Position numbers and translations under genes: made by a program
NCBI RefSeq assembly: GCF_000702905.1
Contig: NZ_JNKR01000015.1
Location: forward strand, 1-57,480
DNA: 57,480 bases
Origin: Mitsuokella jalaludinii DSM 13811
Lineage (GTDB): Bacteria > Bacillota > Negativicutes > Selenomonadales > Selenomonadaceae
Reading direction: 5' to 3'
Shown here: positions 55,654 to 57,480 of the stretch, one piece after another
How positions within the stretch are numbered: position 1 is the stretch's first letter
Layout: every line of letters begins with the position of its first letter
The notes under the pieces: model-generated
What the model was told of the DNA's origin: nothing
What the model saw: only the letters and a program-made list of their open reading frames with translations
Database searches by the model: none

Positions 55654-56463
55654 ATGCATCAGTATCTTTTCTATATCGGAGACTTCCCGATACGGGCCTA
55701 CGGCCTCGTGCTGTCTCTCTCCATCATCCTCGCGACAGGCGTCGGCTACTTCCTGACAAAGGCGGACGGCCGCGGCTACGAGAAGTACATCGTCGACCTC
55801 GGCATCTACTGCGGCGTCGCTGGACTGCTCGGCGCGCGCCTCTGGGACGTCTTCTTCTTTGACTGGGATTACTACGGCCATCATCTGACCGAGCTGCTGA
55901 ACGTCTGGCAGGGTGGCATGGCCATCCAGGGCGGCGTCTTCCTCGGCGTGCTGACGGGCGTCTGGTACTGTCACCGCCATCATCTTGACACCGTCCACCT
56001 CATGGACGTGCTCGCACCGGCCATCATCCTCGGCCAGGCGCTCGGCCGCTGTGCCAACCTACTGAACGGCGACGCCTTTGGCGCACCGACGGGCAGCTCA
56101 TTCGGCATCATCTATCCGACGACCACGCTCGCCTACCACACGTACGGCGACCAGCCGCTCTGGCCGGCTGAAGTCTGGGAAGGACAGCTCGACGTCGTTA
56201 TCTTCGCACTGCTCTTGCTCTTCCGCACGACAAACCACGCCAAGGGCCAGTGCTTCGCCCTCTACGTCATGCTCTACAGCCTCGCGCGCTTCGGGCTCGA
56301 ATTCCTGCGCGGCGATTACACCGAAAAAGTGCTCGGCCTCGTCACGAGCGCCCAGGCCACGAGCATCACCGCCTTCCTGATTGCCGCCATCTTCTTCATC
56401 GGTCTCCAGCTCTATGGAAAGAAACCGAAAAAAATCAGAACGAATCCCGGCCATAAAGTTTGA
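55654..56463 (+). CDS. lgt: Prolipoprotein diacylglyceryl transferase
   Basis: A 269-residue membrane enzyme that moves diacylglycerol from phosphatidylglycerol to the lipobox Cys of lipoproteins. About seven membrane helices; the conserved parts are FPIRAYGLVLSLSI, WQGGMAIQGGVFLGV, GQALGRCANLLNGDAFG (the Lgt signature) and ARFGLEFLRGDYTE. The ATG has AAGGAAGGG upstream. It is followed by the SpeD-like gene, which has its own promoter overlapping the lgt stop. Confidence 0.96.
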   Translation: MHQYLFYIGDFPIRAYGLVLSLSIILATGVGYFLTKADGRGYEKYIVDLGIYCGVAGLLGARLWDVFFFDWDYYGHHLTELLNVWQGGMAIQGGVFLGVLTGVWYCHRHHLDTVHLMDVLAPAIILGQALGRCANLLNGDAFGAPTGSSFGIIYPTTTLAYHTYGDQPLWPAEVWEGQLDVVIFALLLLFRTTNHAKGQCFALYVMLYSLARFGLEFLRGDYTEKVLGLVTSAQATSITAFLIAAIFFIGLQLYGKKPKKIRTNPGHKV

Positions 56464-56489
56464 CGGAACCGAATCCCATCTACTATAAT
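56460..56489 (+). promoter_or_regulatory. Promoter of the SpeD-like gene
   Basis: TTGACG (56460-56465) overlaps the lgt stop codon, and TATAAT (56484-56489) follows after 18 bases; the start codon is 44 bases further, with AAGGAG upstream. Confidence 0.7.
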
Positions 56490-56532
56490 GGAACATGGAA
56501 TCATAAAAAATGCATGAAGGAGTAACGAATTC

Positions 56533-56991
56533 ATGAAAATCTTAGCACGTCATCTCACCGTCGATCTCTTCAACTGCAAGAACAGCAAACTCAAAGATAT
56601 CGACCAGATCAAAGACTATATAGCAGAACTGCCCGAACATTTCACGCTGACGAAGATCTCCGAGTGCTCCGAGCACCTGACGGATGAGCACTACGCCATC
56701 ATGATGCTCTTCCGCGAGGGACACATGGTCCTGCACGTCTACACCAAGCTCAAGTACGTCGCCATCGACATCTTCCTCTGCCAGGAAAACGCCGAACCAG
56801 AGCACATCGCCAAGGACATGCGCGATTTCTTCAAACCGGACAAGACGAAGACCACGCTCTTGAAGCGCGGCGACTTCGGTTCCGCCAAAGACATCCGCCC
56901 CAAGGTCAAGACGCGCGTCGCTCCGCTGCGCAAGATCCACAACACGGGCGCCAAGGTCCTGCGCGTGCTAGCCCGCCGCAACCGCCAGTAA
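56533..56991 (+). CDS. SpeD-like (AdoMet decarboxylase family) protein lacking the pyruvoyl serine
   Basis: A 152-residue protein of the prokaryotic S-adenosylmethionine decarboxylase fold: ARHLTVDLFNC at the start, then REGHMVLHVYTKLKYVAIDIFLC. In true SpeD the block reads ESHxxxHTWPE, where Ser 63 splits off and becomes the pyruvoyl group. Here position 63 is Gly, while His 68 and Cys 83 are kept, and the usual WPE reads YTK. Self-cleavage and decarboxylation as known are therefore not expected. The C-terminal 30 residues are rich in Lys and Arg (KTRVAPLRKIHNTGAKVLRVLARR). It has its own promoter and terminator and no polyamine gene nearby. Function unknown; it could be a regulator, a binding protein or a subunit. 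Confidence 0.75.
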   Translation: MKILARHLTVDLFNCKNSKLKDIDQIKDYIAELPEHFTLTKISECSEHLTDEHYAIMMLFREGHMVLHVYTKLKYVAIDIFLCQENAEPEHIAKDMRDFFKPDKTKTTLLKRGDFGSAKDIRPKVKTRVAPLRKIHNTGAKVLRVLARRNRQ

Positions 56992-57017
56992 ACAATCCGT
57001 CTCATCCACACATGATA

Positions 57018-57063
57018 AAGGGCTCTGCCTCAAAGCATTTACTTTGGAGCAGAGCCCTTCTTG
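57018..57063 (+). terminator. Terminator-like hairpin after the SpeD-like gene
   Basis: AAGGGCTCTGC pairs with GCAGAGCCCTT, extended by CAAAG/CTTTG with a small mismatch, around a loop. Only CTTCTTGT follows, a weak T-run. It may instead be connected with the insertion sequence that starts nearby. Confidence 0.65.
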
Positions 57064-57174
57064 TATCGTAAGCGCTAAATCACCCGGTGTATCAATCGAC
57101 TGCTTTGATAGCTCACCTTTTCATGGTACTGTCAATATTCTTTCGCAAAATCATGAACCGCATCCTCGTTGCAA

Positions 57175-57480
57175 TTAGTCAAGGATGGTCTCGGCATCAC
57201 ATCCATATAGATGCTTCATGTCCATATATTTTTTTGCGCCCCATTGGGAACTCACGACATGACGTAATCTGGCGCAGACGAGCATCAACGCACTCTCTCC
57301 ATCAGGGAAGGTGCCAATGACGCGCGTCCGGCGACGAATCTCCCGGTTGAGGCGTTCTATGGTGTTGTTGGTACGGATTTTCTTCCAGTGTTCTTCCGGA
57401 AAGTCCATGTACGTCAAGGTCTCAGCAATGCCATCCAGCAGCTTGTCGGCTGCCTTGTTCAGCTTCATCCTGCGGAGCTT
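57175..57480 (-). CDS. IS256-family (mutator-type) transposase, C-terminal part
   Basis: The frame is open at the window end, so only the last 101 codons are visible. They contain the IS256/mutator signature region: WKKIRTNNTIERLNREIRRR, RVIGTFPDGESALMLVCARL and SSQWGAKKYMD, following the third catalytic acidic residue region. The transposase cuts and joins IS ends with a DDE centre. The IS end should lie in 57065-57174; a stretch near 57122 (TGGTACTGTCAATATTC) is a possible terminal repeat, but the other end is outside the window. Confidence 0.88.
   Translation of the reverse strand, partial: KLRRMKLNKAADKLLDGIAETLTYMDFPEEHWKKIRTNNTIERLNREIRRRTRVIGTFPDGESALMLVCARLRHVVSSQWGAKKYMDMKHLYGCDAETILD

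Follow-up and report, generated by a model that had tools for sequence, protein, structure and literature searches.

A tailed SpeD homolog of Negativicutes, mostly without the pyruvoyl serine, as a candidate pseudoenzyme

Described relatives of SpeD and the Mitsuokella locus

Dead relatives of SpeD, the AdoMet decarboxylase (AdoMetDC), are already known. The trypanosome AdoMetDC prozyme, which belongs to the eukaryotic AdoMetDC class, lacks the processing serine, as does the protein considered here. According to the available portions of its source, the prozyme activates a paralogous AdoMetDC (PMC5201418). Two bacterial examples appear in the accessible parts of PMC10407285. In SpeD-SpeDC fusions (Victivallis vadensis; Desulfobacter latus), a degraded second domain has lost active-site residues and remains fused to SpeD. 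SpeDA and SpeDC are arginine and ornithine decarboxylases neofunctionalised from SpeD; they are pyruvoyl enzymes that use the same serine, and four residues (Gln, Thr, Phe and Tyr; Fig. 8 of that source) are diagnostic of SpeDC. Active SpeD-derived and other decarboxylases are also described in the available text of PMC9992855 and PMC8503589. Finally, the N-domain of human spermine synthase has a SpeD-like fold and, in the portions of PMC11203672 at hand, is associated with dimerisation.

We looked in the open-access literature for a Ser-less bacterial SpeD, a Negativicutes SpeD or the diamine transferase gene, and the accessible portions contained no report of this protein. Within the same portions, none of the dead relatives compared here is at once free-standing, tailed, spread through a bacterial class and kept without another SpeD. 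The gene of interest lies near the end of the window, by which we mean the whole 57,480-nucleotide stretch of Mitsuokella jalaludinii DSM 13811 that was analysed. Its features are as follows.

55654-56463, plus strand: lgt, prolipoprotein diacylglyceryl transferase, the upstream neighbour (ORF list, Pfam)
56460-56489, plus strand: sigma-70-like promoter, TTGACG-18 nt-TATAAT, overlapping the end of lgt (11/12 matches)
56517-56522, plus strand: ribosome binding site AAGGAG, 10 nt before the ATG (by eye)
56533-56991, plus strand: candidate tailed SpeD pseudoenzyme, 152 aa, ATG start (ORF list, Pfam, profile alignment to 1TLU, structure model)
56719-56721, plus strand: codon 63, GGA (Gly), the pyruvoyl-serine position (register with 1TLU)
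56734-56736, plus strand: codon 68, His, retained processing residue (register with 1TLU)
56779-56781, plus strand: codon 83, Cys, retained catalytic residue (register with 1TLU)
56872-56988, plus strand: class-specific tail, residues 114-152, 39 residues (profiles, alignment, model)
57012-57069, plus strand: stable hairpin followed by T-rich TTCTTGT, probable terminator (z -6.9)
57175-57480, minus strand: 3' part of a Mutator-family transposase at the contig end (Pfam Transposase_mut, 67 bits)

The preliminary description had credited the gene with its own promoter and a ribosome site. Both sequences are in place, but the promoter-like pattern was found once against a mean of 0.8 in shuffled sequences, so that its count is not significant. 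A separate pattern scan of the window did not list the plus-strand terminator at 57012-57069. With promoter-like and ribosome-binding sequences ahead of it and a strong hairpin behind, the ORF reads as a putative transcription unit of a single gene, flanked by lgt and the partial transposase. An lgt-like cluster lies near tailed speD in 42 of 182 loci, at a median of 89 bases upstream and on the same strand in 39. Contig ends are also found near several tailed speD genes in other genomes.

Profile searches bore out the claim that the 152-residue product has the SpeD fold. AdoMet_dc (PF02675) was its sole Pfam family above cut-off, at 78.3 bits (cut-off 25), with all 107 profile positions covered by residues 7-113. 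T. maritima AdoMetDC (1TLU) aligned without a gap, over residues 1-115, to a profile of 26 tailed relatives. This alignment places Gly63, His68 and Cys83 in the register that had been read from the sequence alone: the pyruvoyl Ser63 is replaced by Gly, His68 and Cys83 are present, and WPE has become YTK in the window protein. An AlphaFold2 model (pLDDT 92, pTM 0.82) matched T. maritima SpeD 1VR7 with Z 15.9, rmsd 2.1 and 117 aligned residues, in a fold look-up whose rows mostly cover residues 1-131 and barely include the tail helix. Judged by its sequence, the ORF at 56533-56991 is a full-length class-1b SpeD homolog, which shares with the T. maritima type the whole fold, the gapless register to residue 115, His68 and Cys83. 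Unlike that type, it bears a 39-residue basic tail, and it scores 68.9 bits with NCBIfam TIGR03330 (B. subtilis type AdoMet decarboxylase), below the equivalog cut-off of 75.65.

The other described relatives are set apart by similar features. PDB entry 1TMI, the S63A variant of the T. maritima enzyme, is titled 'non-processing mutant'. With Gly63, the window protein lacks the serine that SpeDA and SpeDC retain; at 152 residues it has no aminopropyltransferase domain of the kind to which the spermine synthase N-domain is fused, and that domain (3C6K; Z 10.9, 99 aligned) aligns only to residue 113 and has no counterpart of the tail. A viral fold library returned only SpeD relatives and weak matches to the model. 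Separately, B. subtilis YwmB (2FPN) resembled residues 1-115 of model mf23a1d793a6e (Z 8.2, 99 aligned, rmsd 3.2), which may reflect distant relationship or merely a common arrangement.

Distribution of the tail and replacement of Ser63

We compared relatives to assess how widely the tail and the serine replacement are conserved. The first search detected a relative in 58 of 60 related genomes; each of the 30 loci that it returned, the window among them, had Gly63. A scan of named genomes, some of which overlap those of the first search, gave 146 relatives; the best 80 of the 146, labelled Mitsuokella, Selenomonas, Anaerovibrio, Megamonas sp. and unnamed Selenomonadaceae, Selenomonadales or Veillonellaceae, were likewise all Gly63. 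Taken as distinct sequences, the window's family (34/34) and the 80 named loci (62 further distinct sequences) had Gly63 in 96/96. Gly63 and the basic tail are thus conserved across the clade, as the preliminary description had supposed for a functional change, and a single mutated copy is ruled out. Serine in homologs of the same clade had been named as grounds for doubting this. It does occur in the wider clade, where other families keep Ser63, but not in the window's own family. Ser46, which had been put forward as an alternative cleavage site, was rejected, as serine stands there in just 24-25% of rows.

A profile of the tailed SpeD matched 145 of 150 Negativicutes genomes, and among the matches listed each genome's best match extended to at least profile position 139. 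The one weak case was G116, in which the tailed speD copy is split between two frames. In a 299-genome phylum sample, 196 genomes matched, 186 of them outside Negativicutes. Among the matches listed, those outside the class ended by position 126, without the tail, except for four that reached 139-140 only by crossing one or two stop codons apiece. These observations suggest that the tail marks Negativicutes as far as sampled. Five of the 150 genomes were without the tailed gene; three (G054, G061 and G067) are 73-87% complete, and the nearly complete G050 and G136 look like true absences. A tblastn search of plasmids gave no match, and a viral scan gave 20 pattern matches, with no relative among them.

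The pyruvoyl serine itself, which class-1b enzymes require, is missing from most tailed proteins: position 63 is Ser in 42 of 193 distinct sequences and another residue in 151. The Ser-His-Cys triad is whole in 28 of the 193, and Cys83 is missing in 14 of the 42 Ser bearers. When residue 63 was tabulated by family (131 distinct rows, with the named loci left out), Gly63 occupied every row of f1 (the window's, 34 rows), f2, f5, f6, f9, f15, f17, f22, f29 and f33, as well as 3/4 rows of f10. Ala was found in 4/5 rows of f4, Cys or Phe in 10/10 of f25, Thr in f7, His in f21 and Cys in 1/11 of f23; the remaining families have Ser. Six different residues stand in for Ser63, Phe and His included, and Cys83 is gone in several families. 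Proteins L188, L190 and L192 of f23 retain Ser63 but have Tyr in place of Cys83 and an RGDFG motif three residues shorter, which by sequence is a putative different route to active-site loss.

Untailed proteins provided reference states. All three residues were kept in 39/39 class-1b SpeDs from other classes (40 control loci: 39 were best-scoring rows of the phylum scan, and the arbitrary stretch L270 gave no match), and Ser63 was present in 8/8 untailed copies within Negativicutes; both sets come from best-scoring rows, not random ones, and so lean towards good SpeDs. A quick rooted tree, with column 63 included, gathered the tailed proteins into one clade against the eight untailed copies (SH-aLRT 100). 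In a 92-row tree built without column 63, the Ser/non-Ser state changed at least eight times (bootstrap 8-9) and Gly alone six; the bootstrap was not fully settled (0.984), and f9, f13 and f21 have long branches and unsure placement. Constraining the 68 non-Ser rows to one clade cost 218 log units and was rejected (p-AU 0.000225). Since the outgroup carries Ser, most changes are best read as losses, with reversals possible (e.g., L147 within f4). That other families of the class keep Ser63 shows, on the evidence of sequence comparison, that the tail came first and that loss of Ser63 was later and repeated.

Selection and the basic tail

We then considered what has been kept once the serine was gone. 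In Ser-less rows, D79, R112 and P123 were kept in 100%, and D11, C15, H64, T108, G113 and [DE]120 in 98-99%; decay was seen at P71 (54%), E72 (32%) and E62 (52%), the first two of which we take to be on the substrate side. Within-family pairs gave median dN/dS values of 0.103 (Ser-bearing) and 0.105 (Ser-less) for the core, and 0.029 and 0.049, respectively, for the tail. These values are rough, with synonymous sites near saturation in many pairs: the 80 pairs are not independent, three of them mix Ser and non-Ser, and each median rests on 15 to 43 usable pairs after saturated-dS pairs were dropped. For the window gene against its relative L005, dN/dS was 0.19 in the core and 0.12 in the tail. 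The medians indicate that the tailed protein is under purifying selection, which is stronger on the tail than on the core.

This pattern is hard to reconcile with a gene decaying on its way out. Such decay would account for the two nearly complete genomes without the gene and for the split copy in G116, but the low Ser-less medians in both core and tail, together with matches in 145 of 150 genomes, leave us giving it almost no credence.

Two other readings assign a new function to the emptied site. As a metabolite sensor, a role that the preliminary description had raised as ligand sensing, the protein would bind AdoMet, MTA or a polyamine there, and the tail would relay this binding event to a partner or to RNA or DNA. 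H64, H68, Y70 and D79 are largely kept in Ser-less rows and the tail is basic in the rows listed, in keeping with this idea; the decay of P71, E72 and E62 speaks against it, and we regard a sensor as unlikely. The second reading is another, pyruvoyl-free chemistry such as AdoMet cleavage. Retention of His68 (92%) and Cys83 (76%) in Ser-less rows could mean that the pocket was kept with a different chemistry, and this counts against calling the protein a pseudoenzyme; phage SAM lyase 6ZNB also matched the window model. That fold match is poor, however (E 0.0022, TM 0.36 and 0.41), and a site in which six residues, even Phe and His, substitute for the serine and from which several families have lost Cys83 makes such chemistry very doubtful.

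The tail has consistent features of its own. It carries the motifs D-F-G and [DE]-x-[KR]-P, and its model consists of a short helix, then a strand (124-129) and lastly a basic amphipathic helix (131-151); in f25, where the tail is longer, the model has the strand together with a helix of 33 residues. In the rows listed, net charge from residue 120 on was +6 to +20, against -11 to +2 for the remainder of the protein (two rows without the anchor motif left out). The median hydrophobic moment of the tail was 0.55, compared with 0.33 for shuffled tails, and 125/125 rows lay above the shuffled median (6 of 131 tailed rows, without the anchor motif, were dropped). For the basic tail the preliminary description had proposed nucleic-acid binding; the modelled basic amphipathic helix would suit either this or attachment to a membrane. 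The tail alone had no Pfam match, and a tail-only profile run on 2.1 Mb of loci gave 30 non-SpeD matches with E up to 10. The best of these, at E 0.018, was an incomplete duplicate of the tail in L032. This locus (G013:C57, L032/L276) holds, just downstream of tailed speD and at the contig end, a second copy of approximately residues 91-131, which follows the first part of a gene that by eye resembles cobT.

Polyamine genes and candidate roles

The preliminary description had suggested a regulatory subunit for a true SpeD, and a canonical speD is indeed encoded elsewhere in the window genome: a class-1a (E. coli) type protein with its Ser intact (G000:C2, 411.6 bits). Class-1a SpeD was detected in 62 of the 79 Negativicutes genomes tested. 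A Ser-less protein that pairs with the genome's active class-1a SpeD and controls whether it is active would thus have both a partner in this genome and a precedent in the dead trypanosome paralog that activates AdoMetDC. When the window protein is the query, however, this class-1a SpeD is too distant to be detected. Moreover, the pairing fails as a rule: among the matches listed, the Ser-less tailed protein was the only AdoMet_dc match in 14/79 genomes (G017, G026, G037, G056, G065, G074, G089, G102, G106, G108, G121, G132, G144 and G158), of which G037 and G056 are 84% drafts and the others at least 96% complete. Because the Ser-less protein persists in these genomes with no other SpeD found, an obligate role in activating SpeD is ruled out, the regulatory-subunit proposal is not supported as a class-wide account, and we consider a prozyme-like activator quite improbable for the window protein. 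The tailed protein, with any residue 63, was the only AdoMet_dc match in 38 of 145 genomes (by eye, among the matches listed).

Spermidine genes vary in the same 14 genomes. SpeE and NspC above curated cut-offs were absent from six (G026, G037, G089, G121, G132 and G144), which had at most weak matches; in the remaining eight, NspC was above or slightly under its cut-off. Obligate SpeD activation, or spermidine synthesis, is unlikely as a class-wide role. Tailed speD has no conserved neighbourhood: its flanking genes vary with the family, and they pointed to no partner. The 25 largest neighbour clusters, each identified by eye from the opening residues of a single member, included no conspicuous polyamine gene; a function based on the operon was ruled out on these grounds.

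Other loci illustrate the arrangement of polyamine genes in the class. In L271 (G017:C15:29000-37000), L272 (G065:C14) and L275 (G050:C5), SpeE is present, no AdoMet decarboxylase was found, and speE clusters with nspC and a carboxyspermidine dehydrogenase-like gene (by eye). In the window genome, nspC, an agmatinase-like gene (by eye), speE and class-1a speD lie close together (L273, G000:C2:154000-164000), and from this proximity two spermidine routes may run side by side.

With some confidence, we favor the reading that the window protein is a SpeD-derived pseudoenzyme that serves as a tail-presenting scaffold or adaptor. In the Negativicutes, one SpeD copy bears a C-terminal extension, modelled as a strand and basic amphipathic helix; its pyruvoyl serine was later replaced in several lineages (by Gly in the window's family), and purifying selection has continued to act on the fold, a structural residue set and the tail. 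The cofactor cannot form without the serine, and a protein without Ser63 would therefore make no cofactor of its own and be no decarboxylase. The earlier expectation of a non-decarboxylase role holds up as probable, given the missing cofactor source and the conservation of Gly63 and the basic tail. What remains would be a folded, probably dimeric carrier, if dimerisation is taken from its relatives, whose two basic tails would be held to something acidic, be it the inner membrane, a nucleic acid or the ribosome, or a partner protein of acidic character. It would act there as an adaptor or regulator, and its partner probably occurs across the whole class and is not SpeD itself. The families with the whole triad (28/193 proteins) may, from their sequences, be active enzymes, in which case the tail's original job may belong to an active SpeD.

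One specific form of the adaptor reading concerns the envelope. In Negativicutes, OmpM anchors the outer membrane to polyaminated peptidoglycan, according to the accessible parts of PMC10628300. The phrase 'diamine transferase' is absent from all ten open-access papers listed on this question. To our knowledge, no gene is known for the enzyme that attaches the diamine to peptidoglycan. Tailed SpeD might be a Negativicutes-defining, cytoplasmic, membrane-bound adaptor that aids attachment of putrescine or cadaverine to peptidoglycan, an old polyamine-enzyme fold being reused; such a role would account for the persistence of the protein where SpeD is absent, for its basic amphipathic helix and for the several losses of catalysis, and we offer it as a highly speculative suggestion.

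Stand-alone SpeDs found throughout a class, in which the serine was lost several times and the tail kept, would be a natural experiment in the passage from enzyme to non-catalytic protein. The gene name 'adenosylmethionine decarboxylase' would mislead models of the polyamine pathway in Selenomonas, Mitsuokella and their relatives. As a small conserved gene, tailed speD would be a deletable candidate in the outer-membrane-bearing Firmicutes, in a class, Negativicutes, that is common in gut and mouth.
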